From: a virus | Length of the DNA: 34,070 nt | Virus record (IMG/VR): IMGVR_UViG_3300028883_000026 | Coordinates: 1 to 34,070 of that record | Reading direction: 5' to 3' (one strand) | Part shown: positions 10,012 to 34,070 of the stretch, piece by piece | Position numbering within the stretch: position 1 is the first letter of the stretch | How the letters are laid out: each line of letters opens with the position of its first letter | Program-made: the position numbers and the translations under genes | The notes under the pieces: model-generated | The model's database searches: none | What the model saw: the letters and a program-made list of their open reading frames with translations, nothing else | Told to the model about the DNA's origin: nothing

Positions 10012-11880
10012 TTAAGAACTTGTTACGGTTTCCCAAGAACTGCCATTATAGAACTTGAGTTTATTGTTTGTGCTATCATAGATCAAGCCACCTGTGACAC
10101 CAGTAGGTTCACTACCCGATGCATACGATGGGATAACGTATTGGGCATCACTACCACCGATGTATAGTTGCCCTTCGAATCCCGAACGAATTGTTACGGG
10201 ACCACCAGCCTGGGTCTTGCGCGCTTGAAGAATAATACAAGTATTTGCGAAATCGTTTGAACTTGCACTTCTGCCAATTACTACGGATTCGTATGCATTT
10301 GAGAAAGCGTAGTAACCATTGACGACAGAGTAGTCGCCGGTACTTCCCAGGCCTGAAGCACGGCCCACTGCTATACCACCAGTAGCGCTGGAACCGATCA
10401 AGGCGTCAGCTCCAACAACTATGCTATAGTTACTTTGAACTGTCATGTTGCGCCCAATTCCTACACAACCTGTCGCTCCACAAGAGGAGTTCATTCCACC
10501 AATGATAACTGAGTTTGTACCTGAACATGAGTTACCGTTATTTGAAATGTTGATTGAGTTTGAACCTGAGGTCTGTGCATAAATTCCGATCGAGATTGAT
10601 TGCGTGTTTGACGCTTTCGCATACTTACCAATACCAATCGAGGACCCGCCGGTAGCCTCCGAATCTTCCCCTATAGCGAGAGAGTCGGAACCCGTAGCGA
10701 CTGGCAACGTTCCGTTGTAGTTTTCAGCAAAATAGTCTTCGCCTCCACCACCGCCTCCGGAAACTTCTTCCCAAGCAGCATTACCTGCACCGTCCGCAGT
10801 AAGGACGTAACCGTCAGTTGCAGATTGAGAATCAATGTCACCTGCCTGAACAGAAGTCAAATAAGAACCCAAGTCAGAAATGTCCGCTTCCGTCAGAGCA
10901 CGACTTTCCCAATCAACTCCATCTGCAACGAGAACGTTGCGGTTTGTAGGCGTGCTTGTGTTTACATCACTGAGGTCAGAAAGTTGTGATGCGCCTCCAC
11001 CGCTTGCAGCTTCCCAAGCAGCATTACCTGCACCGTCCGCAGTCAGAACATAACCATCGGTTACGCCAGTTGCATCAATTGTCGTTCCTTCATGAACGTG
11101 TGATGCGGCTGCATAAGAACCAAGATCACTTATCTGGCTTTCTGTAATTGACAGAGCTGCCTGATGTGCAGTAACATCACCTTCGGTTACTGTGTAGTCA
11201 GAAATCCAAGTACTATCAGTAATGTCTGCCATGACATGGGTATGACTTGATGCGGCCTTACCATCCAAAGCAGATTGTAGGTCTGTCTGATTACTCAGCG
11301 TTCCAGTAACATCACCCCAAGCGACACCAGTAATGTAAGAACCAAGATCACTGATCTGGCTTTCTGTAATGCTCAGAGCGCCCTGGTGTGCTGTTACATC
11401 GCCTTCTGTTACGGTGTAATCGGAGATCCAAGTTGAATCTGTGATGTCCGCCATCACATGAGTGTGAGAGGTAGGAGCATCACCTACTTTTGCAACCTCA
11501 GTTCCACCAATAAGAACCTTACCGGTTCCTTTCGGTTGGATGTCAATGTCTACGTTTGTGTCAGTTCCAGCAGCGGCGATGATCAAGTCATTACCAGTTG
11601 CACTGTTTGTGACATGAACGTAGTTGACAGCACTCGCTACACCCTCTGTAACCAAAACAAGTTCCCCGTTTCCGGTAATACCTACTTGTTCGTTGGTCGG
11701 CGAGTAAATTCCTGTGTTGTTGTCATCTGAAAAGCGAACAGATGGTTCGCTCTTCGTTCCATCAGGCAGCAGAACACCGTTATTAATCGTTACGATTTCG
11801 GTTGCGCCTGGATCAAGCTCAATGCCCGCCCCATCGCCTGCGCTGATGATGTTCGTTGTTGTATTAAAATCAAGAGCCAT
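10012..11880 (-). CDS. Fibre protein with repeats, beta-roll adhesin head and fibre tip domain
   Basis: I place the start at ATG 11880, which overlaps the upstream stop by one base (TAATG) and has GGAGAA before it, giving 622 aa. An N-terminal part resembles beta-helical fibre stems (VRFSDDNNTGIYSP near 50-65). Two copies of a 45-residue repeat follow, then two copies of DGYVLTADGAGNAAWE. Residues about 400-540 hold at least eight 14-residue units of the type S-x-x-I-G/V-x-x-A, as in the left-handed parallel beta-roll of YadA-like adhesin heads. The C-terminus has GLIYDSTNNKLKFYNGSSW, a common fibre tip module. It shares the 45-residue repeat with the gene at 12359-13732. A trimeric receptor-binding fibre is likely. 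It lies inside the head gene block, so it may decorate the capsid. Confidence 0.75.
   Translation of the reverse strand: MALDFNTTTNIISAGDGAGIELDPGATEIVTINNGVLLPDGTKSEPSVRFSDDNNTGIYSPTNEQVGITGNGELVLVTEGVASAVNYVHVTNSATGNDLIIAAAGTDTNVDIDIQPKGTGKVLIGGTEVAKVGDAPTSHTHVMADITDSTWISDYTVTEGDVTAHQGALSITESQISDLGSYITGVAWGDVTGTLSNQTDLQSALDGKAASSHTHVMADITDSTWISDYTVTEGDVTAHQAALSITESQISDLGSYAAASHVHEGTTIDATGVTDGYVLTADGAGNAAWEAASGGGASQLSDLSDVNTSTPTNRNVLVADGVDWESRALTEADISDLGSYLTSVQAGDIDSQSATDGYVLTADGAGNAAWEEVSGGGGGGEDYFAENYNGTLPVATGSDSLAIGEDSEATGGSSIGIGKYAKASNTQSISIGIYAQTSGSNSINISNNGNSCSGTNSVIIGGMNSSCGATGCVGIGRNMTVQSNYSIVVGADALIGSSATGGIAVGRASGLGSTGDYSVVNGYYAFSNAYESVVIGRSASSNDFANTCIILQARKTQAGGPVTIRSGFEGQLYIGGSDAQYVIPSYASGSEPTGVTGGLIYDSTNNKLKFYNGSSWETVTSS
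11113..11469 (-). repeat. Two 45-residue protein repeats in the 622-aa fibre
   Basis: Units at 11335-11469 and 11113-11247 encode nearly the same residues, from SHTHVMADITDSTW to ISDLGSY. They are separated by a linker encoding AWGDVTGTLSNQTDLQSALD. Two more units lie in the 457-aa fibre gene. The protein is almost unchanged while the DNA differs at many third codon positions. Confidence 0.9.
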
Positions 11881-12359
11881 TAAAATTTCTCCGTTATTGC
11901 GGTCCAATCAATTGTATGAGCCGCTTCGCCCGTTACTGTGACCGTCGCATTTCCTCCACTCACACCCGCAGAAATGTCCCAACCAGCTGCTCCCGTGTCG
12001 TGTCCGGTATCACTCGCAACCCCGCCAACCAGCGATGCGGTTCCACCTACGTTCTTAACACAGAATCTCATGTTGCGCCAGTACGTATCATCTGTAGCAT
12101 CTTCATGTCCACGAACTCGTACTTGTATGACGCGTTCTTCACCGCTCGGAATTGCAATAGTCGCAAGAACCGTTGGTGTAGCATCTGTTGTTTGATCCGA
12201 ATCATTCTGTTGGTTGGTATCACTTACCTTCACACCACCAGTTGTCGAACCATCACCAACCCAAATCTCTTTAAGGTCGGTTGTGTAAATTACTTCACCT
12301 TCATTGAAGATGACTGTTTGTCTTTCGGCGTCAGTGCCTCGGCGTATTTGTAAAGCCAT
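11880..12359 (-). CDS. Fibre-associated protein with Mtd-type N-terminal domain
   Basis: I use ATG 12359 (159 aa), which overlaps the previous stop by one base. An upstream TTG at 12377 is possible but less likely. Residues 1-45 match the N-terminal domain of major tropism determinant and T7-like fibre proteins: a short IRRGT turn, FNEGEVIYTTDLKEIWVGDG, then a Gly-Gly turn. This module usually anchors or trimerises receptor-binding proteins. The remaining part is a beta-sandwich-like region with Thr/Gly-rich loops. It lies between two repeat fibres that share a module, and all three are translationally coupled, which suggests one fibre complex. No reverse transcriptase or variable repeat is present. 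Confidence 0.7.
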   Translation of the reverse strand: MALQIRRGTDAERQTVIFNEGEVIYTTDLKEIWVGDGSTTGGVKVSDTNQQNDSDQTTDATPTVLATIAIPSGEERVIQVRVRGHEDATDDTYWRNMRFCVKNVGGTASLVGGVASDTGHDTGAAGWDISAGVSGGNATVTVTGEAAHTIDWTAITEKF

Positions 12360-13732
12360 TATACGAAACTCCCACAATCCATAGTTGCGTTATTTGGCGA
12401 AGCTATTGTGCCCAAATCAATGTCCACTCCTGGACCTGTTGGACCGCCTGCTCCTGTGTTAACGACCCAAGAACCATTTTTTGAAACGTATTCGTTTCCA
12501 TCAGATGGTGCGTGTGCAATGAATGCGGAGTCGTTTGTTAAAGTTGAAATGTTATCACTTGGCTGAACCGCACTGTCTGCCAAAGCACCTTGTGCTGTGG
12601 TTGCGTAATCGCCGTCATGATTATGTGTCGCATCAGATTTTGCATCCAATGCTCCTTGTAAATCTGTTTGATTTGAAAGAGTTCCTGTTACATCACCCCA
12701 AGCAATACCTGTGATGTAAGAGCCCAAGTCTGAAATCTGGCTTTCTGTGATCGTCAGAGCAGCCTGATGTGCGGTGACATCACCTTCCGTAACCGTATAA
12801 TCACTGATCCATGTAGAATCTGTGATGTCAGCCATAACATGAGTGTGACTCTGTGCTGCAACGTTTACGCCTATGTCAGCGTCTTTCAGAATAGTTGCGT
12901 CAGCAGGTTCGTATACGCCTGAGTGATCATGCCCTGTATCAGACTTACCATCCAACGCGGATTGAAGATCAGTTTGGTCAGACAGTGTTCCAGTAATGTT
13001 GCCCCATACAGCGCTGTTTGGTGCGTCAATAAACTCGATTGCATCTTCTGCAACGTTTACTGCAAGAACCTTTCCGCCTTGTGATGTGAAGTTCGCAGGA
13101 GTGTCAGTCAATTCAACAAATGTTGTAGCACCGCCACCACCGGTTGTAACAAGCGCCCATGCACCATCTTTACGCAGGTACTCATTGCCGTCAGAAGGGG
13201 CATCTGTCAAATAAGAACCAAGATCGCTAATTTGCGATTCGGTGATTGTTAATGCGCTTTGATGTGCTGTTACATCACCTTCAGTTACGGTGTAATCAGA
13301 AATCCATGTAGAATCTGTGATGTCTGCCATCACATGAGTGTGACTCAATGCAGCGTAATCACTGTCATGGTTGTGAGTTGTATCGCTCTTTCCATCTAAT
13401 GCGGACTGAAGATCAGTTTGATTTGAAAGAGTTCCAGTAATGTTACCCCACACCGCATCATCACCTGAGTCAGTTCCGTTTACCCAAGCAACTCCGTTCC
13501 ACTTCAACACTTCTCCACTTGATGGAGTTGTGATAGTGACATCATTAATGTCGTTAAGGCTGTTTACGGATGCGGAAGTATCACTCCACTCAGTATCAAA
13601 GTCAGAATCGGACGTCTTTTTTAGGAACTGTCCTGTCGTTCCACCTACTGGAACGCCTTGTCCTGATGGACCTGCAACGCCAGTTTCGATTATTACTGTG
13701 TTGTCTTCTGTGTTAATCGTTACATTACTCAT
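12359..13732 (-). CDS. Repeat-rich fibre protein
   Basis: This 457-aa protein has GPSGQGVPVGGTTGQFL near the start, a frequent N-terminal fibre module. It then alternates WGNITGTLSNQTDLQSALDG linkers with two copies of the 45-residue repeat seen in the next fibre gene. A duplicated APSDGNEYLRKDGAW / APSDGNEYVSKNGSW module is also present. The C-terminus ends in a collagen-like GGPTGPG and a short strand pair. It overlaps the upstream gene by ATGA and the downstream gene by TAATG. The composition (Asp/Thr/Ser/Gly rich, few Lys) is that of a fibrous trimer. Its receptor is unknown. Confidence 0.75.
   Translation of the reverse strand: MSNVTINTEDNTVIIETGVAGPSGQGVPVGGTTGQFLKKTSDSDFDTEWSDTSASVNSLNDINDVTITTPSSGEVLKWNGVAWVNGTDSGDDAVWGNITGTLSNQTDLQSALDGKSDTTHNHDSDYAALSHTHVMADITDSTWISDYTVTEGDVTAHQSALTITESQISDLGSYLTDAPSDGNEYLRKDGAWALVTTGGGGATTFVELTDTPANFTSQGGKVLAVNVAEDAIEFIDAPNSAVWGNITGTLSDQTDLQSALDGKSDTGHDHSGVYEPADATILKDADIGVNVAAQSHTHVMADITDSTWISDYTVTEGDVTAHQAALTITESQISDLGSYITGIAWGDVTGTLSNQTDLQGALDAKSDATHNHDGDYATTAQGALADSAVQPSDNISTLTNDSAFIAHAPSDGNEYVSKNGSWVVNTGAGGPTGPGVDIDLGTIASPNNATMDCGSFV
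12716..13345 (-). repeat. Two 45-residue protein repeats in the 457-aa fibre
   Basis: Units at 13211-13345 and 12716-12850 encode nearly the same residues, with only one Ser/Ala change and different third codon positions at several sites. They match the two units in the 622-aa fibre gene, so four copies exist across two genes. Confidence 0.9.
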
Positions 13733-17820: not shown

Positions 17821-19071
17821 TTATCCTTTCCTGATTGTTACGCGCTTGCGGTCCATTTCCTGCAATGGATACTGGTAATGTATGAAATACCCCGCAGCAT
17901 CGACAGGGTGGTCTATGTCATTTCTTTTTTCTGGCTTGCCGTTTCTATCATACGACTGCATTTCCAAAGCCTCAGCGTATTTAGGACAATTTTCTGTATT
18001 TACACGGTATCGAATCTCGCCTTTCGCATTACAAAACATAGAGTTCATCGATGCTACACGATTGCGCACAGGTGGATTCTTTGTTGGGTGGCGTACTGTA
18101 AACCCAGCATTCTTAAATTGTATGATGTCCGCAATTCCAGCATTACTGCTTTCACTTTTACCGGAACTATCTGGATACATTATGATTTTGCGGTTTGGAT
18201 ACCGCCTTTTGATCTCTTTTATCGTTTCCTCTGTGTTCTTCATGTCACAAATTTCATCAAGTGCAAGCGGCTCTTGATTGTGAACAACATGAACGATAGA
18301 GGAGTTGTGGTTTACGTTAAAGTCCTGTCCAATGTGGAGCACATGTTCAGGAAAGTCGGATAGCGTAAGATCAGTGTGGTTCTTTTCACGATCAAACGCA
18401 TAGTACACAACACCACTCTGCATGTTGACAAAGTAACCGTCAATGTATGCTTGTGCCAATCGTGGTTCGTATAGGCTTTCCTGTTCATCAACGTATTCTT
18501 TATCGAGGTGTGGATTCTCTCTCATTGAAATACGGATGAGGCGGCGGTCTTCTTCGTGCTGATTCTTCTCGAAGAACTTGTATGTCCATCTGTATCCTTC
18601 CGGAGTAGTTGTGATGAACTTCTGGCGGAACTTGCCATCAGATACACGAGAGCTGATAGAAATCCAAGCATCATCAACCAAGTCTTCCTCAATTGTGTCA
18701 ATCTCGTCAACACCCGCCCAAGCTGCTGTGATACCACGAAGGCGTCTGTGGTTCTCAGCACTACGCAAAAGGATGCGACATGGGCCTTGCTCGAAATGAA
18801 CAGTTATTTCTGGAGATTGTCCTGTCTTCATTTCGAAAGGAATTTCGAAGTCCGCAAGCACCATGTCAAACACAGGCAACAACGCATCCTTTACCATACT
18901 GAATGTCGGTTCCATAATGATGCCAGTCTTGTATGGTGTTAAAGACGCCATGTGGAGCGCTTTGATGGCAAGAGAAACCGTTTTACCCGCACGGAAACCC
19001 CCTACGTAGGCAAGATAGGGGGTTGTGACGTCTTTAACGAATTGTTTCTGCTTAGGAAGGAGTTCGATCAT
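17821..19071 (-). CDS. terL: Large terminase subunit (ATPase and nuclease)
   Basis: This 416-aa protein has the full terminase set. Walker A is GGFRAGKT (24-31). Walker B is AGVDEID with the catalytic Glu123. A coupling motif TTTP lies at 154-157. The RNase H-like nuclease has Asp250 (GQDFNV), Asp301 (YPDSSGK) and Asp391 (HPVDAAGYF). All catalytic residues are present. It pumps DNA into the prohead through the portal and cuts the concatemer. It starts at ATG 19071 with an ATGA overlap with the small subunit. Whether it packages by cos or headful cannot be decided from the sequence. Confidence 0.96.
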   Translation of the reverse strand: MIELLPKQKQFVKDVTTPYLAYVGGFRAGKTVSLAIKALHMASLTPYKTGIIMEPTFSMVKDALLPVFDMVLADFEIPFEMKTGQSPEITVHFEQGPCRILLRSAENHRRLRGITAAWAGVDEIDTIEEDLVDDAWISISSRVSDGKFRQKFITTTPEGYRWTYKFFEKNQHEEDRRLIRISMRENPHLDKEYVDEQESLYEPRLAQAYIDGYFVNMQSGVVYYAFDREKNHTDLTLSDFPEHVLHIGQDFNVNHNSSIVHVVHNQEPLALDEICDMKNTEETIKEIKRRYPNRKIIMYPDSSGKSESSNAGIADIIQFKNAGFTVRHPTKNPPVRNRVASMNSMFCNAKGEIRYRVNTENCPKYAEALEMQSYDRNGKPEKRNDIDHPVDAAGYFIHYQYPLQEMDRKRVTIRKG

Positions 19072-19436
19072 TCGTCCAGTTCAACAGGAATAGCCTTTGG
19101 TAGTGCGGGAACTGTGGCCTCGTCAAGGCGGCTACCGTCATTCCATCTGTGCTTTATCTTTCCGTAAGCAAGTAGTGCGGTGAGATGTTGTTTGTGTCCG
19201 TCATTAAATGCGATTTCACGAAGGCGGTTCATACACAACTGTTCGTCATGGATGCGTCCACGTTCGATAGCGTCGTCAAGTTCTTTGTGCTTCTTACGCC
19301 AATTTCGGAACGTTGTGACACCAACTCCAAACGCCTTTGCGATTGAAGCAATTGTGTAACCTTCTGAAGACCATTTCTCCGCATTGCGAAGATTCTCTGG
19401 CGTCAGGTCGAATTCTTTTTGTGGTTTTCCAGCCAT
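19068..19436 (-). CDS. terS: Small terminase subunit
   Basis: This 122-aa protein has a helix-turn-helix near residues 22-50 (SSEGYTIASIAKAFGVGVTT then FRNWRKKHKELDDAIERGR), the pattern of phage small terminase DNA-binding domains. A helical middle (LREIAFNDGHKQHLTALLAY) would form the oligomer, and a proline-rich tail may contact the large subunit. It overlaps terL by four bases. No clear Shine-Dalgarno sequence precedes the ATG, which may keep its amount low. It recognises the packaging site, probably close by. Confidence 0.85.
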   Translation of the reverse strand: MAGKPQKEFDLTPENLRNAEKWSSEGYTIASIAKAFGVGVTTFRNWRKKHKELDDAIERGRIHDEQLCMNRLREIAFNDGHKQHLTALLAYGKIKHRWNDGSRLDEATVPALPKAIPVELDE

Positions 19437-21230: not shown

Positions 21231-21567
21231 CCTGTCTTGATCCTGGGTACGCTATCCAATACATTTCCATGAAGCGATCAAGGTCCATTACAACGAGGTC
21301 TTGGTATTGTTTGCCAATCTTCTTCATTACGAGGAAATTGTTACCCTCTAACCAATTGTACACGGAAACTGGAACAGAAGCGCGGAACTTGCATTCGACT
21401 TTCTCTAAAGGACGATCCAGGGTGCCTATAACAACGTCTGCATCGAGTTCCTTTTTAGAGGCGCCCAATGATACTTGTGGGGATCGTTCAGCCTTAATAC
21501 CAGCGTTTCTTAGTGCGTCACGAACCTTGTTCTCGTAGTTGGTGCCCTTGACTTTTGACTTACTCAT
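21217..21567 (-). CDS. PD-(D/E)XK nuclease, Holliday-junction-resolvase-like
   Basis: I place the start at ATG 21567, which overlaps the upstream stop (ATGA), giving 116 aa. The motifs of a small Hjc-type nuclease are present: Glu12 in TNYENKVRDAL, Asp44 in ELDADVVIG, and Glu58-x-Lys60 in KVECKFR, followed by a helix and a final strand pair. These residues form the usual metal site. A resolvase would debranch recombination or replication intermediates before packaging. It is the clearest DNA-metabolism enzyme outside the terminase. Confidence 0.75.
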   Translation of the reverse strand: MSKSKVKGTNYENKVRDALRNAGIKAERSPQVSLGASKKELDADVVIGTLDRPLEKVECKFRASVPVSVYNWLEGNNFLVMKKIGKQYQDLVVMDLDRFMEMYWIAYPGSRQDEQD

Positions 21568-21815
21568 TTTCTTGCGAAGCCTTTTGCGTCGGACATGCGA
21601 CGACAAGAGGTTGTCAGAGCTTTGATCGCGTTGTTGAAGCTGACGGGTTCGACTTGGAGGCTTCCAAGGTCGTATTCGAGGACAATAGATTCGGGAACGT
21701 CTTCGAAGTTGAATGTGCCCTTATTACCACGAACGTCAATGTTTTGTAGTTTGTATCCTTTGACCTTGAGAACGGCAGCAAGGATTATGTCTGTAGTGCT
21801 GTATACATTATCCAT
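21564..21815 (-). CDS. DUF5659-like small protein
   Basis: This 83-aa protein opens MDNVYSTTDIILAAVLKVKG, then has a short KGTFNFED strand and a FNNAIKALTTSCRRM helix. This matches the general pattern of DUF5659: a YxTxDxxLAAxL start, an F-x-F-E-D strand and a late helix. The function of the family is unknown to me. It is the first gene of the long unit 2, with AAGGAAA upstream of the ATG and a promoter -10 about 28 bases before it. Confidence 0.6.
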   Translation of the reverse strand: MDNVYSTTDIILAAVLKVKGYKLQNIDVRGNKGTFNFEDVPESIVLEYDLGSLQVEPVSFNNAIKALTTSCRRMSDAKGFARK

Positions 21816-21842
21816 TTGTATTTCCTTATTGTTATGTGTTGG

Positions 21843-21865
21843 ATTATACTGTATTTAGCACAATA
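21843..21865 (-). promoter_or_regulatory. Promoter of unit 2 with operator-like inverted repeat
   Basis: TATAAT lies at 21848-21843 on the minus strand, about 28 bases from the first gene. No good -35 hexamer is seen, so an activator may be needed. An imperfect palindrome, TACTGT-N7-ACAATA (21847-21865), overlaps the -10 and could be a repressor or activator site. Confidence 0.55.
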
Positions 21866-21876
21866 AGAAAATGACT

Positions 21877-21883
21877 ATAAATA
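21877..21883 (+). promoter_or_regulatory. ATAAATA motif, only plus-strand copy
   Basis: TATAAATAC on the plus strand, 47 bases before a terminator that has its best T-tract on the same strand. This parallels the minus-strand TATAAATAC at 25532-25524. The -35 region is poor. Confidence 0.35.
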
Positions 21884-21974
21884 CGGACGCGCAAGTCCTT
21901 TTGTTGAGGGTGCGTAATCTAAGGGAATGAAGAAACCCCTGACCTGTGGAGAACGGATCAGGGGTTTCTTTTGC
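21884..21974 (+). ncRNA. Candidate small RNA on the plus strand
   Basis: A transcript from the TATAAATAC box would begin near 21888, may carry a small 5' hairpin (GGAC / GTCC, 21884-21897) and end at the 13-bp terminator stem followed by TTTCTTTTG. Its last bases, GGGTTTCTTTTGCC, almost match the 3' end of the minus-strand candidate RNA at 25421-25519. There is no open frame of note. The weak -35 lowers confidence. Confidence 0.35.
21930..21970. terminator. Strong, probably bidirectional terminator
   Basis: A perfect 13-bp stem (21930-21942 with 21958-21970, AAGAAACCCCTGA / TCAGGGGTTTCTT) with a 15-base loop. The plus strand has TTTCTTTT after the stem; the minus strand has TTTCTTCATT. On the minus strand it ends unit 1 after the lipoprotein gene. 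Confidence 0.88.
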
Positions 21975-22019
21975 CGGGCGCAGAGCCGGCTTGCCCTTGG
22001 AGAAAGGGTTGGTGGTGGT

Positions 22020-22238
22020 TCAGTAACAATTGGTATACGCTTGATTACCAATGTATGATGTTGTGCAGTTCAGGTTCCGCGGTTGAGGTTGGTTCATCAT
22101 CTGCATTCCTTGGAAGATCATCTGCTTGCGCATTTGGCACTCCTCAGGACTGCCCTCAGGACCGCATGCACGCGACAATGCTGTCTGACATCCAGACAAC
22201 ACTGCGGCGGCGATTGCGATTGCGATCACTTTTTTCAT
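22020..22238 (-). CDS. Small lipoprotein
   Basis: This 72-aa protein has a short signal peptide (MKKVIAIAIAAAVLSGC) with a lipobox LSGC, so Cys17 would be lipidated. Four further Cys residues (25, 34, 58, 71) could form two disulphides in the periplasm. The C-terminal half is Gln/Met/Asn-rich. Phage lipoproteins of this kind include o-spanins (Rz1-like) and superinfection-exclusion proteins. It is far from the holin-like genes and last in unit 1, which favours exclusion over lysis, though this is inference. Confidence 0.75.
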   Translation of the reverse strand: MKKVIAIAIAAAVLSGCQTALSRACGPEGSPEECQMRKQMIFQGMQMMNQPQPRNLNCTTSYIGNQAYTNCY

Positions 22239-24323: not shown

Positions 24324-24959
24324 TTAATCCTCGTCATCAAGACCAAGCAACTCCGCTGTTATCGCTTCTTGTTCTCTTCGGTTTTCCTCCAACTGAATAG
24401 CGGCACCAGCATGTTTCATGTGATGTTCAAGAACGATTTTAAATTCGTATTCCTTAATCTTCATTCGGTCCTTATGTCCTCTTACGCATTCCAGCCACAC
24501 ATGCGCGTATGTCTTCCATTCGCCAGGTGCGTTTAGTATTCGTTGTTGGAGGAAATCAGGTACCCACGTGTATCGCTCGGTGTCATTTCCCATCAGAGAA
24601 CCAAACAACTCACGGAACCGGTTCATACCTACCGCTTGTGCTTTTGTTACCGCAGTAGCGCCATCAAGCCACACGAAGACGTGGAAGTTGTTCTTTGTGC
24701 TCCATGTGTGGTATGTGTCAATCAGGTAGTAGGTGTTTGGTTTGAAGTCCAGTATGGATGCTGGTGTCAACCCGAGGTCTTGTGCGGCACTTATTGCTTG
24801 TGGAATAAACCGGTAGTCTTTTGCCTCCGTATTCAAGTTCCGTGCCATCTTATGCCAGATGACGCCTTTATCCAGATCCGGATTCGTGATGTAGACCTCC
24901 ATCGGTCTGTATTTGATGTCGCCACCTGCGGTGCGCCAGTGTAATTCTTTACCACTCAT
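24324..24959 (-). CDS. Unknown 211-aa protein, first gene of unit 1
   Basis: This is the largest product of unit 1 and is not recognised. The middle has NTYYLIDTYHTWSTKNNFHV (76-94) followed by FVWLDGATAV and a helix with VGMNRFRELFGSLMGND. The strand-His-hydrophobic pattern followed by a polar helix vaguely recalls primase-polymerase or RepB-type primase cores, but no clear metal-binding pair can be assigned. The C-terminus is a charged helix ending in an acidic tail (LLGLDDED). Since no other replication gene is visible, it is the best candidate for an initiator, at low confidence. Confidence 0.55.
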   Translation of the reverse strand: MSGKELHWRTAGGDIKYRPMEVYITNPDLDKGVIWHKMARNLNTEAKDYRFIPQAISAAQDLGLTPASILDFKPNTYYLIDTYHTWSTKNNFHVFVWLDGATAVTKAQAVGMNRFRELFGSLMGNDTERYTWVPDFLQQRILNAPGEWKTYAHVWLECVRGHKDRMKIKEYEFKIVLEHHMKHAGAAIQLEENRREQEAITAELLGLDDED

Positions 24960-24984
24960 TTGTCTTATCTCCTATTTGTATCAC

Positions 24985-25014
24985 ATTATACTACTCATTC
25001 CATAAACGAAACAA
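24985..25014 (-). promoter_or_regulatory. Promoter of unit 1 (TTGTTT-N18-TATAAT)
   Basis: On the minus strand a -35-like TTGTTT (25014-25009) and a perfect TATAAT (24990-24985) are 18 bases apart, about 25 bases upstream of the 211-aa gene. TAGGAGATAAGACA gives the ribosome site. Confidence 0.75.
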
Positions 25015-25019
25015 GTTGT

Positions 25020-25420
25020 GTGGCACATAATGCCTTGCCGAAGGCGAGTGCATTTGTGTCGCCAACTGGGTGGATTTATGAGCGACCAACAGGAGCGAGT
25101 AAATCCACCGAATACAGCGCACCGCCAAAACTATTGAATAAAGAAAGCCCCTGGTCAGAGAAGGTCAACCATAGGCAAGCCCAAAAACAAAAAGTGTTTT
25201 GTTCTCACATCGGTAGCCCGACAACTGGCGTTGCGTAATCCGTAATCAGAGCCTTCTCATTACGGCACAACTCACAGGAGGAACTCACAGACTACATTGT
25301 CGTCATCTGTGCCAGGTATGCCCCGCCTGACCCACATAGGGATTTCTTGACCGACTTGCTACATTGCACAACAGAGTGCTTGCTAGGATACTGCGTGTCT
25401 TGGTATCCAGTTTAATAGGG
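25020..25420. other. Hairpin-rich non-coding region, RNA or origin candidate
   Basis: No convincing gene lies here. Stems include TGGCACATAATGC / GCATTTGTGTCGCCA (25021-25064, imperfect, with an inner GCC-GAA-GGC), a perfect 10-bp stem GGTGGATTTA / TAAATCCACC (25069-25109) and GCCCCTGGT / ACCATAGGC (25147-25176). They continue with CCGTAAT / ATTACGG (25240-25265), GGCACA / TGTGCC (25264-25313) and GGATAC / GTATCC (25386-25408). AACTCACAG is repeated directly (25269 and 25282). On the minus strand the third stem is followed by TTTCTTTATT, a possible terminator. It matches no RNA family that I know. Confidence 0.6.
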
Positions 25421-25519
25421 CAAAAGAAAACCCTATGTTGGAACGCCGACGATGGCACATAGGGTTTTAAAGAAATCGTATTGTGGTTATCGTCGTTTGT
25501 GTCTGGTTCCAGCAGACCT
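25421..25519 (-). ncRNA. Candidate small RNA or terminated leader
   Basis: A transcript starting near 25519 from a near-consensus promoter would run about 99 nt to an intrinsic terminator. It has a 5' hairpin (GTCTG / CAGAC). Seven bases, CGACGAT (minus strand, 25495-25489), can pair with ATCGTCG in the terminator loop (25453-25447), giving an alternative fold or a pseudoknot. No open frame of note is present. It may be a free small RNA or a leader that controls read-through into the region ahead of unit 1. Confidence 0.6.
25422..25468 (-). terminator. Intrinsic terminator of unit 2 and the small RNA
   Basis: A perfect 12-bp stem AAAACCCTATGT / ACATAGGGTTTT (25468-25457 with 25438-25427) with an 18-base loop, then TTTTCTTTTG on the minus strand. 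A competing ATAGGG / CCCTAT pair (25415-25436) overlaps one arm. Confidence 0.88.
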
Positions 25520-25524
25520 AAATG

Positions 25525-25531
25525 TATTTAT
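25525..25531 (-). promoter_or_regulatory. ATAAATA motif within a promoter -10
   Basis: The heptamer overlaps the -10 (TATAAA) of the strong promoter at 25527-25555. It is the only copy that clearly sits in a sigma-70-like promoter, which may hint at the role of the other copies. Confidence 0.45.
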
Positions 25532-25555
25532 ACACAATACTAGGTAGGATGTCAA
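25527..25555 (-). promoter_or_regulatory. Near-consensus sigma-70 promoter (TTGACA-N17-TATAAA)
   Basis: A perfect -35 (25555-25550), a 17-base spacer and TATAAA (25532-25527) lie on the minus strand directly after the stop of the 143-aa gene. It is the best promoter match I found in the window, and no gene follows for over 500 bases. Confidence 0.85.
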
Positions 25556-25560
25556 CAGGC

Positions 25561-25992
25561 TTACACGAATCTATCGAATGATCCGTCCTCCACCATTGCC
25601 TTGCGTAGATCGTCTGATACCACACCGACCTCGGATAATGAGGGCAGTGCTTCGTAGAACTCATACGGAACGTCGAGTATCGTTTGGTCATCGCATCGTG
25701 GCTGTCCTTCATCTAACCACCACCAGTATCCGATGATACGGATGTGTGGCATTGCTGGTTTACCAGCAATGTAGAAATGCGTCATGAACTCATCGACGAA
25801 GATAGCGTGGTCGTTATACTGCGTAATTTGGTCTTGCAGATCAGCGATTGCATCATCTTCTAACCATCCGTCAAGATCTTCTTCCCAAGGTGGCATTAAA
25901 ATTTGACGGTTGTATTCCATGTTCTTGCCGATTGTAACAGCAAGGCGAATAAGTGAGGGATTCAGTACGAGTACTGGGTCTTGATTTTGCAT
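25561..25992 (-). CDS. Unknown protein (143 aa), last gene of unit 2
   Basis: This protein is not recognised. It contains an NMEYNRQILMPPWEEDLDGW segment, an acidic helix (EDDAIADLQDQITQYND), a RIIGYWWWLDEGQPRCDD part rich in Trp, and a helical end. CAGGAG lies upstream of the start. It is last in the tail operon, after two tip proteins and a 150-base gap, so it may be a fibre chaperone or a late accessory protein. Confidence 0.6.
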   Translation of the reverse strand: MQNQDPVLVLNPSLIRLAVTIGKNMEYNRQILMPPWEEDLDGWLEDDAIADLQDQITQYNDHAIFVDEFMTHFYIAGKPAMPHIRIIGYWWWLDEGQPRCDDQTILDVPYEFYEALPSLSEVGVVSDDLRKAMVEDGSFDRFV

Positions 25993-26673: not shown

Positions 26674-27752
26674 TAGTACGTAGACTCGTATGAATAAGTT
26701 CTGCCTTTATACACGAAAAAGTTTCCATCACCGCTCATTCTTCCAATAGGCCTATCTGTGTATGATGAGGTTACATCCACCCTCTCTGTAAAACTCCACG
26801 ATGTGGATTCATCAAACACTTGAAAATTTCCGTTAGTGGACGCTCTATCGAACGCCGCTAATCGGGTACCGTCGTCAGAAAGAACGAGTCTTGTGAACTC
26901 ATCCGCTGGGGAATTACGGGCAAAGTTGTCATCCTCAGCCCAAGAACCCCCACTGTACTTCCACACATACAGCGAGCCGAAGCCAACCTCGCCATACTCA
27001 GGGTGTAATGACATGACTGTTCCATTGTAGTTTAATGCAGGTTCGATTATTCCTGTTTGGACGTACTGAAGCATTGTTGTTTCTTCTTGAAGCGACCAAG
27101 AACCAGAATACTCATAAACAAAAACTCTACTTGTTCCAGAAGCACCGTTCTTGCGTATTGCAATAACGTTTCCATCTCCACTAAGCCCCGCAGGACCGTA
27201 TCCTGTTGTAAACTTAGTTTCGTATTCAAACGAAGCAGGAGATCCACCAAAGCGGAACACAGCTATTGAGTTCAACGCTGCCCTGCCCATCATTAAAACA
27301 GTTCCATCGTCGTTCAAGTCGACGCTGTGAAAACCCCAATAATAGTTGGTTTGTCCCATCGTAGCATTTGGCCACACAGTTTCGTCGTATGTCCAAGTTG
27401 AACCCGAACGCCTAAAAATGTGAACACATCCCGTGTTTGGGATAATAGGCGAGCCTCTATCATCATCTTGATACGCATTAGCAACAGCGGCTACTGTTCC
27501 ATCACCGGAAATGGCAACACGTTTTGCATAATTGCCTTCCGAACCTGGATTACTCAGCGTTCCTTCCAATGTCCATCCGCCCAGCTCATTACGAACATAA
27601 ACGTACGCTGCTCCTCCTATCTCTTTACCGAGAATCACTCGTTGCCCATCGGAAGTAATGTCTTCGTCGTTGGGAACCCAACCGACGTTAAACTCCTGAA
27701 TGAGAGTAGGTAGCGTAATTGTGTTTTTATCAGTAAAGAACCCAGTAAACAT
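26673..27752 (-). CDS. Seven-bladed beta-propeller tail protein, FG-GAP-like
   Basis: I place the start at ATG 27752, which overlaps the upstream stop by one base (TAATG), giving 359 aa. Seven copies of a short [S/N]-x-[D/N]-G motif (TSDGQRVIL, SGDGTVAAV, NDDGTVLMM, SGDGNVIAI, NYNGTVMSL, SDDGTRLAA, SGDGNFFVY) are spaced through the protein. Each is followed or preceded by a strand such as VYVRNELGGW, VHIFRRSGSTW, VFVYEYSGSW or LYVWKYSGGSW. This pattern is typical of FG-GAP-type propellers. It follows two fibre paralogues, so a receptor-binding role is likely. It is a different type from the other propeller in this genome. Confidence 0.8.
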   Translation of the reverse strand: MFTGFFTDKNTITLPTLIQEFNVGWVPNDEDITSDGQRVILGKEIGGAAYVYVRNELGGWTLEGTLSNPGSEGNYAKRVAISGDGTVAAVANAYQDDDRGSPIIPNTGCVHIFRRSGSTWTYDETVWPNATMGQTNYYWGFHSVDLNDDGTVLMMGRAALNSIAVFRFGGSPASFEYETKFTTGYGPAGLSGDGNVIAIRKNGASGTSRVFVYEYSGSWSLQEETTMLQYVQTGIIEPALNYNGTVMSLHPEYGEVGFGSLYVWKYSGGSWAEDDNFARNSPADEFTRLVLSDDGTRLAAFDRASTNGNFQVFDESTSWSFTERVDVTSSYTDRPIGRMSGDGNFFVYKGRTYSYESTY

Positions 27753-29635
27753 TATGCGAAATCCTTGTTGTAAGAACAAAATACGTTCGTTCCGTCGGAA
27801 ATACAAGTCATTAGATCAACATCTCCAGATCCTGTTGAAATTGCAGGCGTCTGCCCCGCTCGGAACTTATAAGCACTACCAAACGCCAGTGTATAAGGCC
27901 CAGCTCCCTGTGTAAACACAAACATCATTGTTTGGCCTGCAGTCAAGTTAGTTGGATTAGCAAGGGTAGCGTTGTGAGCCAGTGTCAGCTTAAACACATT
28001 GCTTGTAGAAGCGTCCACGCTAACTGAAGCACCACTTGTCAATGTGGTAGGAGAAACAGCTTGTGCTTTTGTGAAAGTATTCGCTTCGTTTGTTACCACA
28101 ACTGTGGATGCAAGATCGATCTCTCCGGCCGTTATAGTGAGCCTTGAAGTATCGCCTGAGCGAACGACACCGTATGTGGTATTTGTTGCTTCCGGAACGG
28201 AAATCACACCACTTGTTACATCAATGTTATCTCCTACCTGAACGACACCTTTAACGCCTGTGGTAGCGTCTGTTCCTGAAAGAACTCCTGATGATAATGT
28301 AAGACCAGTATTTTCAGTTACCTGAAGAATACCTTTTGTAGTATAAGTGGCATCGGGAACTGCCGTAGCGGAAAGAACACCGCTACCGTCAATAGACAAA
28401 CCGCTACCAACCTTGACTCCACCAAGCTCCGTAGGAGTTGCGATGTGAAGAGATAATACTCCTGCCGCAACATCCAAACCATCACCAACTTGAACCAATC
28501 CCAAAGACCCAGATGTTGCAGAAGGAACAGAAATTACGCCACTCGCCACGTCAATGTTTGTTCCTACCTGAACAACACCTTTAGAACCTGTAGTGGCATC
28601 TGGTAGGCTTAGTTCGGAAACGTCTACAGATACAACGCCTGAAGATACATCAAGGCCGGTACCCACTTGCATTATACCTTTAACCGACTCTGATGCATCT
28701 GGAATACTCAACTCAGATACGTCTACAGATACAACGCCTGCTGTTACATCGAGGCCGCTACCTACTTGCATTACGCCTTTGACTGACTCTGAAGCATCTG
28801 GAACGCTGATGTTTCCGCTTCCATCTACATCGATGTTTCCAGCTGTTGGAACTATAACACCACCAAGTGATGTGGTTGTAGCTACTGGAAGCGATCCACA
28901 ATCAACTGAAATCACACCATCTGTTACGTCAATGCCTGAACCGATTTGAACGACACCTGCAACTAACGTAGTAGCGTCTTTTGCATACAACTCGCACGCT
29001 CCAACACCGTCTGTAGCTGATCCAAGATCATCGTAGCCAGTTAAACATGCGAACAGCGAATCTGATGTGATTTCAACACTAGAGAGTTTCCCTGACGTTG
29101 AACTTGTGATAACAATGTCCCCGCCACTAATGGAAGCCGTTGCTCCTGACAAATCATCATTGATCTCATCAATCAAGTCCGAAAACGTTTGAGCATCATT
29201 TCCAGAAACTGAAACAGTTTGTGTTGCCCCTCCATCTACCTCTACGGTAAATGTGTATGATGAACAAGCATCGTTTGCGAGTCCTGTGGAATCGCCTCCG
29301 GATACTGAACCTCCCATGTCCACAGTCCAAATTCCCGCCGTGGCAGTATCTTGGATGTATAGGTGTTCACCTATTTTTACAATACCTGGAGTAGAATCAG
29401 TTGCATCTGGAATCAATGCCGCAATGTCTGCAGACGATGTGTCTTCAATCGCTGTGATGCGTCCTTTCGTGTCCACAGTTATGTTCGCTACTGGGTATTG
29501 TCCAGGCGAACTTCCTGGGCTTCCGGTCAATAGATGTGTTAATTGAGGATTGGTTCCGACCTGTGCTCCTCCATCGCCGTTTAAGTCGCCGAGAAGTTTA
29601 ATTTCACCTAGTTGGGTATCTGTTGCTTCTGCCAT
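27752..29635 (-). CDS. Repeat tail fibre (627 aa), paralogue of the upstream fibre
   Basis: The N-terminus (ATDTQLGEIKLLGDLNGDGG) is a fibre attachment module. The stem has about a dozen units of roughly 25 residues of the type KGxVQVGxxIDVxSGVISVP. The C-terminal 110 residues hold a module common to phage fibres: SVDASTSNVFKLTLAHNATL, then ANPTNLTAGQTMMFVFTQG and a final FCSYNKDFA. The upstream fibre has the same units and the same C-terminal module. CGGAG lies upstream of the start. A trimeric fibre with a long stem is expected. Confidence 0.8.
   Translation of the reverse strand: MAEATDTQLGEIKLLGDLNGDGGAQVGTNPQLTHLLTGSPGSSPGQYPVANITVDTKGRITAIEDTSSADIAALIPDATDSTPGIVKIGEHLYIQDTATAGIWTVDMGGSVSGGDSTGLANDACSSYTFTVEVDGGATQTVSVSGNDAQTFSDLIDEINDDLSGATASISGGDIVITSSTSGKLSSVEITSDSLFACLTGYDDLGSATDGVGACELYAKDATTLVAGVVQIGSGIDVTDGVISVDCGSLPVATTTSLGGVIVPTAGNIDVDGSGNISVPDASESVKGVMQVGSGLDVTAGVVSVDVSELSIPDASESVKGIMQVGTGLDVSSGVVSVDVSELSLPDATTGSKGVVQVGTNIDVASGVISVPSATSGSLGLVQVGDGLDVAAGVLSLHIATPTELGGVKVGSGLSIDGSGVLSATAVPDATYTTKGILQVTENTGLTLSSGVLSGTDATTGVKGVVQVGDNIDVTSGVISVPEATNTTYGVVRSGDTSRLTITAGEIDLASTVVVTNEANTFTKAQAVSPTTLTSGASVSVDASTSNVFKLTLAHNATLANPTNLTAGQTMMFVFTQGAGPYTLAFGSAYKFRAGQTPAISTGSGDVDLMTCISDGTNVFCSYNKDFA
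28599..28636 (-). repeat. 38-base identity tract between fibre paralogues
   Basis: These 38 bases are identical to 30497-30534 in the upstream fibre gene and encode part of the stem repeat. The flanks are also very similar, so recombination or recent gene conversion between the two genes is likely. Confidence 0.85.
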
Positions 29636-29646
29636 TTGTTACTCCG

Positions 29647-31146
29647 TTATGAGAAATCTTTTAGTAATTGGCATACGAGAGTATCTGTATCTGTTACCAA
29701 AATGTTTACGATGTCCACACTATCCTCTCCAGTTGAGAGTGTCGGGGTATCATCAAATTTAAAAGCCGAGTTGAACGAGGCGGTTCTGCTTCCCGTACCG
29801 TCCTGAACCAAGATAAACGTTACCATCGATCCTGCAACAAGATTAGTAGGCTTGTTTATTGTAGTGTTTCCTGTTAGAACCATCTTAAAAGCATTAGATG
29901 CGCTAAAATCAGGGGTCCAAGACGAGGTAAATGTTTCCGTCACTAACGTAGGAACCTGTGCTCCTACGAATGCGTTTTGTTGATCGTCTTCCGTTACGTT
30001 AGGGCAAGTCAATTCCCCAGATGTGATGTTAATGTGGTTTGAGTCAGCGGTTTGAATAACACCAAATGTGGTATCCGACACAGCAGTTGGAACGCTGATC
30101 GTTCCTGAAGAAACATCAATGTTATCTCCCACTTGAACAACACCTTTAGAACCTGCGGTGGCGTCAATAGCTTCAAGATCCCCAGCAGTGATTTCCAATC
30201 CTGTTCCTGTTTGGATCTGAACAATCCCTTTGGATGAGTATGTGGCATCTCCCTGACCGCGAGCCAGAACTCCGTCATCAATGCCCAACCCAGATCCAAC
30301 TTTCACAAGCCCTAATGTTCCAGCTGATGCTATCGTTGAAGTTGAGATTATGCTGCTTCCATCAACCTCTACATCAACCTCATCTCCCTTCACAATACCA
30401 ATTTCAGTAGTAGAGCCGGTGGGAACAGAAATCACACCACTTGATACGTCAATGTTTGTTCCTACTTGAACAACACCTTTAGATAGTGCTGTAGCGTCTG
30501 GTAGGCTTAGTTCGGAAACGTCTACAGATACAACACCCGAAGATGCATCAAGTCCACTACCTACCTGCATCAATCCTTTGCTGGATTCGGTTGCGTCTGG
30601 AATGCTCAACTCAGATACATCAACAGAAACGACACCTGCTGTTACATCAAGGCCGCTACCCACTTGCACCAATCCTTTGCTGGATTCGGTTGCGTCTGGA
30701 ATGCTGATGTTTCCGCTTCCATCTACATCAATGTTTCCTAATTCTGGAACAATAACCAATCCTAATGTGGTGGTTGTGGCGATGTCATAATCGACACGAA
30801 GAACGCACCCATCGATTTCAAAACCACTACCTACCTTAACAACACCTTTGTTAGATGTGGTAGCAAGTGGAATGCTAATTTCTGTGTCAGCTCCATAAAC
30901 GGCGGTGATGTTTGTTCCTGGGATTACCAAGCCACACGAAAATACTGTTGCGCAAGGAATGTCAACTTCTGTTAAACTTTTTGCGTACAGCACACGGCCC
31001 TTAACATCAGCATACACACCGCACGCAACATAATCGCCTGGGGTTACACCGGTAGGAACCAATTCTGGAGATGTAGCATCGGAGAATAAAAGATCTCCAC
31101 CCTCTCCAATAACTGTACCAAGTGTTGTGTCTGTTGCCGCTGCCAT
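29647..31146 (-). CDS. Repeat tail fibre (499 aa)
   Basis: About ten stem units of the same type as in the next gene are present (KGLVQVGSGLDVTAGVVSVD and variants), after an N-terminal module with ATDTTLGTVIGEGGDLLF. The C-terminal module (FSASNAFKMVLTGNTTINKP, then TNLVAGSMVTFILVQD, ending CQLLKDFS) is homologous to that of the 627-aa paralogue but clearly diverged. It overlaps the 69-aa gene by TAATG. The two fibres could bind different receptors or form a two-part fibre. Confidence 0.8.
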   Translation of the reverse strand: MAAATDTTLGTVIGEGGDLLFSDATSPELVPTGVTPGDYVACGVYADVKGRVLYAKSLTEVDIPCATVFSCGLVIPGTNITAVYGADTEISIPLATTSNKGVVKVGSGFEIDGCVLRVDYDIATTTTLGLVIVPELGNIDVDGSGNISIPDATESSKGLVQVGSGLDVTAGVVSVDVSELSIPDATESSKGLMQVGSGLDASSGVVSVDVSELSLPDATALSKGVVQVGTNIDVSSGVISVPTGSTTEIGIVKGDEVDVEVDGSSIISTSTIASAGTLGLVKVGSGLGIDDGVLARGQGDATYSSKGIVQIQTGTGLEITAGDLEAIDATAGSKGVVQVGDNIDVSSGTISVPTAVSDTTFGVIQTADSNHINITSGELTCPNVTEDDQQNAFVGAQVPTLVTETFTSSWTPDFSASNAFKMVLTGNTTINKPTNLVAGSMVTFILVQDGTGSRTASFNSAFKFDDTPTLSTGEDSVDIVNILVTDTDTLVCQLLKDFS

Positions 31147-33725: not shown

Positions 33726-34070
33726 TCAATCTCCCGTGTAATCGTGTTTGCCGCTGCTGACCATACCAACGCCCTGAATCTTCGTGTATGGCGTTCTGTA
33801 GTACAAATCGTCATTGCGGAATGCGATAACGTCTGTGGCTGTTGTCAAGAAAATGTACTCCCCTACCGTCTGTGTTCCTGAGTCGGTTGCATAACTATGT
33901 GCAATTGTTTTAGTCAGAGCGGTGAATGTGGTTGATGGAAAACGTTCTGTGTTAAACGAGTAATCATCCTCATCGCCGTTTGTCATTCGAATGTCGCCAT
34001 CACTTTCACGGCTTCGGACGAGATCGTTGGCGGCGAACCACAAGTATGTTCCGTCAGAACAAATACCTTC
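33726..34070 (-). CDS. Beta-propeller protein, 3' part (5' part at 883-1)
   Basis: This is the end of the 366-codon gene described at 1-883. Bases 33944-34070 repeat 1-127, so only 33943-33726 add new sequence (the last 73 codons with stop). The C-terminal blade contains GEYIFLTTATDVIAFRNDDL and ends KHDYTGD. The stop TGA lies one base before the ATG of the next tip gene, so the two are probably coupled. Confidence 0.8.
   Translation of the reverse strand, partial: EGICSDGTYLWFAANDLVRSRESDGDIRMTNGDEDDYSFNTERFPSTTFTALTKTIAHSYATDSGTQTVGEYIFLTTATDVIAFRNDDLYYRTPYTKIQGVGMVSSGKHDYTGD
33944..34070. repeat. Direct terminal repeat, right copy
   Basis: Identical to 1-127. It marks circular closure of the contig; see the left copy. 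Confidence 0.95.

Follow-up and report, generated by a model that had tools for sequence, protein, structure and literature searches.

What could be the function of the hairpin-rich DNA found near 25 kb in the genome of a phage with all its genes in one orientation? We investigated the whole IMG/VR record IMGVR_UViG_3300028883_000026 (34,070 nucleotides, hereafter the window). Bases 1-127 recur exactly at 33944-34070, so the record closes to a circle and the window is a complete phage genome with a circular map of 33,943 bp. The length of this 127-bp direct terminal repeat suggests an assembly (k-mer) overlap rather than physical ends. A gene call by codon usage over the whole genome gave 41 genes, all on the minus strand, as is every convincing gene. 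TerS (19068-19436), TerL (17821-19071) and portal, scaffold, capsid, and tail genes were recognised by PHROGs. The early block spans 19.5-25.0 kb, where orphans predominate, and encodes a PDDEXK/RusA-like endonuclease and an endonuclease-VII-like zinc-binding protein; the presumptive labels early and late come from gene content. The circular gene order starts with the gene of a 211-aa protein (24324-24959) and ends with that of a 143-aa protein (25561-25992), both on the minus strand. Between them, where the last late gene meets the first early gene tail to head, lies a strongly folding non-coding gap of 601 bp (24960-25560), hereafter the seam. A preliminary description of this DNA had placed the stretch at 25020-25420, between two transcription units. 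The actual gap is larger, and the two sides are not separately oriented, being the ends of one circular order on a single strand.

The flanking genes give few clues. For the 211-aa protein, no match was found in Pfam, PHROG, NCBIfam, PDB or by tblastn, and its AlphaFold model, made from the single sequence without alignment, is of poor quality (pLDDT 37). Its residues ~75-100 recall archaeo-eukaryotic primase motifs, but no profile backs this reading, and comparison with RepB_primase and Prim-Pol gave no match. The 143-aa protein is without relatives in the collections searched. Elsewhere in the genome, the repeat-rich fibre-like genes at 10012-13732 and 27752-31146 contain internal repeats of 79-300 nt common to neighbouring ORFs, which suggests that fibre segments were duplicated. 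A small lipoprotein-like early ORF (22020-22238) has a signal region resembling Cor-type superinfection exclusion proteins (weak PHROG match).

No coding frame was found in 24960-25560, the codon scores being negative in all frames tested (this phage's genes mostly score +0.1 to +0.4), in agreement with the earlier statement that no convincing gene is present. The plus-strand ORF 24960-25238 and the minus-strand ORF 25303-25458 were both rejected as genes on this basis. The stretch had also been called hairpin-dense, which holds in part: the seam contains 2-4 perfect stems of at least 7 bp (loops up to 40) per 400 nt, where the genome as a whole averages 0.9 (sd 1.0), although 4 is also attained in a few coding windows. 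The hairpins exceed chance, though their strength is not unique. On the plus strand, 25020-25420 folds at -131.5 kcal/mol (z -3.6) with none of 100 dinucleotide shuffles as good, and on the minus strand z is -1.9, with 3 of 100 shuffles as good. For the core at 25014-25438 the values are -144.3 kcal/mol (z -4.7) on plus and -143.9 kcal/mol (z about -3.3) on minus, no shuffle of 150 being as good on either strand. The whole gap reaches z -6.2 on plus and -2.9 on minus, and the plus-strand z of the seam is the strongest among the five gaps over 220 nt of this genome. The fold signal is clear against shuffles and modest against the genome, since, compared with GC-matched windows from this phage, the raw 400-nt energies do not stand out (residual z -1.6 on plus, -1.1 on minus); about 2% of the genome's 160-nt windows lie below z -4.

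The core begins with two large hairpins. The first (H1, 25014-25067, plus strand) has 24 bp, of which 3 are G-U, and three U are bulged out. It corresponds to the long inverted repeat formerly reported at 25021-25064, which is real and extends further on both sides. Its energy is -29.2 kcal/mol (z -6.1) on plus and -17.9 kcal/mol (z -3.0) on minus, and it ties as the most stable 52-nt piece in the whole genome. The second (H2, 25069-25109, plus strand) starts one nucleotide after H1, and its perfect 10-bp stem is exactly as had been described, with 11 bp when a G-U pair on plus is counted and with GAGCGA twice in the loop; it reaches -22.5 kcal/mol (z -5.7) on plus and -17.4 kcal/mol on minus, ranking 15 in the genome by stability. 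They are followed by a plus-strand domain (H3, 25117-25236) closed by GCGCA-CGCCA/TGGCG-TGCGT (25117-25127/25226-25236), with pair probabilities of 0.97-0.98 on the plus strand only. Two hairpins not assigned to a strand lie downstream, H4 at 25240-25265 (CCGTAAT/ATTACGG and 3 inner pairs; z -4.5 on plus, -5.3 on minus) and H5 at 25286-25311 (CACAGA/TCTGTG). A long-range pairing within 25331-25441, likewise without strand assignment, joins 25331-25348 with 25424-25441 (16 of 18 positions) and encloses H8 (25381-25405), which has 11 bp with 4 G-U on the plus strand. The direct repeat also mentioned in the preliminary description, AACTCACAG, is present at 25269 and 25282 (25269-25290, plus strand, 13-bp step), but a 9-bp repeat of this kind is near chance level, with about 0.3 expected by our estimate among all pairs in 400 nt.

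Which strand the fold belongs to is less uniform. H1, H2 and H8 are better on plus, and H4, H5 and the stem at 25147 are better on minus. Helices of the plus strand have pair probabilities almost all above 0.9, several of the minus strand having 0.6-0.7, and the strand difference of the window 24961-25120 is reached by only 0.7% of the 160-nt windows of the genome. On the other hand, the structural entropy of 25014-25438 is about equally low on both strands, which is what inverted repeats in DNA would give. We lean towards an RNA on the plus strand, at least for H1 and H2. The idea of a terminated RNA on the minus strand had been raised previously; a structured RNA does fit the fold statistics, but these fit better on plus than on minus.

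Transcription signals are found on both sides of the core. The promoter-like site P1 (25527-25555, minus strand) has TTGACA (25555-25550), 17 bp and TATAAA (25532-25527); it is located directly behind the last late gene, outside 25020-25420, and no other minus-strand site of the genome scores as high with the sigma-70 matrix. P2 (24985-25014, minus strand), with TTGTTT (25014-25009), 18 bp and TATAAT (24990-24985), ranks 7 by the same score and precedes the first early gene by about 25 bp. Both are consensus matches only, with -35 and -10 hexamers at the 16-18 bp spacing of sigma-70 promoters. We estimate a probability of ~0.7% that two of the top seven minus-strand scores would fall within this 1.8% of the genome if they were evenly spread. 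The best plus-strand promoter near the start of the core is poor (TTATCT-16-TATACT at 24987, rank 85) and stands back to back with P2.

The intrinsic terminator T1 (25418-25468, minus strand) consists of a perfect 12-bp stem (25468-25457/25438-25427) with an 18-nt loop followed by TTTTCTTTT, and folds at -18.2 kcal/mol (z -5.0) on the minus strand. It has the G+C-containing stem and the T-run directly after it on the transcribed strand that define such terminators. Like a Rho-independent terminator, it has a perfect stem, a coding-strand tail rich in T and a position at the end of the late operon; unlike the usual ones, it has a longer loop and a promoter-like site upstream. The T1 hairpin (25427-25468) lies beyond the interval 25020-25420, where a different stem (25147-25176) with a T-rich tract had been proposed as terminator. 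That stem (25136-25176 with its tail, minus strand) has -11.7 kcal/mol and folds no better than shuffles (z -0.6). Two other sites, one behind the gene of the major capsid protein and one at 21868-21908, carry terminators similar to T1. A second structured gap (21816-22022), in the early block, contains a near-perfect 15-bp stem, AAGAAACCCCTGATCC...GGTCAGGGGTTTCTT, with a further hairpin adjoining, and this stem looks like a bidirectional terminator. The putative terminator and promoters of the seam are well supported by sequence.

Our leading interpretation, held tentatively and at less than an even chance, is that the gap controls transcription where late and early genes meet and contains a structured RNA element, probably on the plus strand. 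T1 would stop the late transcripts, P2 and perhaps also P1 would start the early operon, and the core would act as a structured RNA element rather than as bare DNA sequence. We infer that the core is transcribed, and we infer its strand and role likewise: a plus-strand RNA of ~425 nt would be read away from the early operon, its first hairpin abutting the -35 of P2, and may control the early promoter region and the 3' ends of late mRNAs via promoter interference and antisense pairing. A clean 3' end is not predicted on plus, since the long-range pairing of 25331/25441 and T1 compete for 25427-25438, which both use. Against a plus-strand RNA count the lack of homologues, and with it of covariation, the poor promoter at its start, the greater strength of H4 and H5 on minus and the low structural entropy common to both strands.

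The search for relatives bears on this reading in both directions. With the DNA of the gap and both flanking genes, no relative was found in phages, plasmids, IMG/VR and GTDB genomes at the sensitivities used and in collections from which records very close to the window may be missing; sequence and covariance-model searches of 1.15 Mb of related loci gave no homologue of the gap either. Alignments of TerL, capsid and portal led to distant relatives (up to 42% for TerL and 48% for capsid). One of them, IMGVR_UViG_3300013126_000098 (G001), has the structural module of the window in the same order, and IMGVR_UViG_3300008450_000250 (G044) and IMGVR_UViG_3300034160_000014 (G042) share many head and tail genes with it and likewise have genes mainly on one strand. 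The gap, the 211-aa gene and the 143-aa gene are absent from all three. At the corresponding late/early seam, G044 (L169 7494-7862) and G042 (L175 10578-10949) carry an endonuclease I gene (Pfam PF05367) on the opposite strand, which gives plus-strand transcription a precedent at this place. In G001 the seam is unstructured, spans 241 bp and includes a strong promoter match. The seams of three distant relatives contain no comparable structure, a point against the plus-strand RNA. A covariance model of H1 and H2, built from one sequence and thus of low sensitivity, found only itself when run on the 1.15 Mb of related loci and on 12 related records. The stem pattern of H2 with a free loop gave three hits in viral contigs, which we attribute to chance, as they lie within protein-coding sequence, their loops differ and nothing else in them resembles the gap. 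No genome contig matched the 211-aa protein or the capsid alignment, and a 60-residue match of this protein in a relative falls inside an HNH-like ORF and was taken as chance. Either the structured element arose very recently or its lineage is one that has not been sampled.

Two side observations also involve relatives. The 83-aa early ORF at 21564-21815 is 39% identical (E 4e-13) to a frame of G001; this gene changed module, since its G001 counterpart sits between two tail genes. Another related viral contig (G035, L162 7941-8263 and 1152-1473) has very strong intergenic inverted repeats, in which a near-perfect stem of 26 bp encloses another hairpin (z about -9 and -7.9), and no Rfam match. 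Strongly folded gaps of the relatives had no match in Rfam either.

Phage replication origins with inverted repeats are a known kind, and an origin is the main rival reading, although we consider it unlikely. The inverted repeats would then be a DNA or single-strand initiation structure for the orphan 211-aa protein or for host factors. The seam resembles such origins in being non-coding, repeat-bearing and beside the first early gene, it is the largest strongly structured gap, and no replication protein is recognised elsewhere in the genome, so that an orphan initiator is possible. A single DnaA-box-like site and a turn of the detrended GC skew nearby also speak for it. However, neither iterons nor tandem repeats above chance were found in the gap, and with a GC content of 47% the core is without an AT-rich unwinding element. 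There is no cluster of DnaA boxes, only one DnaA-box-like site (TTATACACA, 25528-25536, plus strand), which overlaps P1 and is one of 3 in the genome (1.6 expected by chance). H1 is held on plus by its 3 G-U pairs, which help an RNA but are mismatches in DNA. A GC-skew change had been suggested as a check, and the detrended skew does turn near the site (22.5-27 kb). The cumulative curve peaks near 26.6 kb and is lowest near 12.5 kb, which exceeds what 500 block shuffles gave. An origin is usually located at the cumulative minimum on this strand, whereas the turning point near the seam is a maximum, of opposite sign to a conventional origin. Gene-class composition also confounds the skew, the early block having its own.

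A structured RNA on the minus strand seems improbable to us. Transcripts from P1 would end at T1, giving a small RNA of ~100 nt, or would read through the core and form a long structured early leader similar to those of antitermination. In favour, P1 is the top minus-strand promoter match of the genome, T1 follows ~50 nt after its start, and the minus-strand fold of the core beats all 150 shuffles. But the fold is weaker on this strand over 25020-25420, the second terminator is weak, and, with P2 downstream of the core, the early gene could be transcribed without it. The P1 leader of 55 nt has hardly any structure (-4.9 kcal/mol). An attenuator was considered, in which this leader pairs with the T1 loop (CGACGAT/ATCGTCG and TGGAAC/GTTCCA, 7 + 6 bp), and was rejected as 30% of shuffled leaders do equally well; blocking the terminator arm leaves a best fold of -17.4 kcal/mol, compared with -23.1 for the terminator. 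In phage HK022, the put RNA (PMC9378689) consists of two stem-loops in ~70 nt downstream of an early promoter, and RNAs of this type bind the zinc-binding domain of the RNA polymerase beta-prime subunit and suppress termination. The seam also has stem-loops in non-coding DNA near early promoters, but its two big hairpins lie upstream of P2, at a distance of ~450 nt from P1, and have their best fold on the opposite strand, and the nearly unstructured P1 leader does not provide two stem-loops within ~70 nt of an early-promoter transcript.

Quite improbable, in our view, is a reading without RNA function, in which the seam is an array of DNA operators or what remains of a decaying sequence such as a plus-strand endonuclease gene: conservation of any kind was not found for the gap, some coding windows of the genome fold equally well and relatives have a plus-strand gene in the same slot, but no trace of an endonuclease reading frame is left in the gap, H1 exceeds ordinary operator length and tolerates G-U on one strand only, and the plus-strand fold is better than every shuffle. 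A cos or pac site was rejected, since TerS and TerL are 6 kb away (17.8-19.4 kb) and the end repeat looks like an assembly overlap.

To return to the control seam with a structured RNA, such an RNA would not belong to a known family. As had been stated from the letters alone, no family applies: with the 4227 Rfam models, nothing in the window passed the curated gathering threshold, and relaxed E values gave chance-level matches only. Large structured RNAs of phages or bacteria, such as GOLLD and ROOL (PMC12286853), are represented in Rfam, and a structured non-coding RNA of several hundred nucleotides in a phage genome is of a known kind; unlike these, the seam has no Rfam family at threshold, no homologues and a single occurrence. 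The specific proposal that a ~425-nt phage RNA of an undescribed class, opposite to all genes, controls the switch between early and late transcription appears doubtful to us, and at present the seam is a good but uncorroborated candidate. Early transcription and replication must have starting points even in small uncultured phages whose genes run in one direction and in which replication genes are not recognisable, and in this genome the seam is the only strongly structured non-coding candidate for such starts. If the seam is an origin, the orphan 211-aa protein would be implicated as a new kind of initiator; if the core is RNA, it would be a structured RNA of phages that has not been described before.
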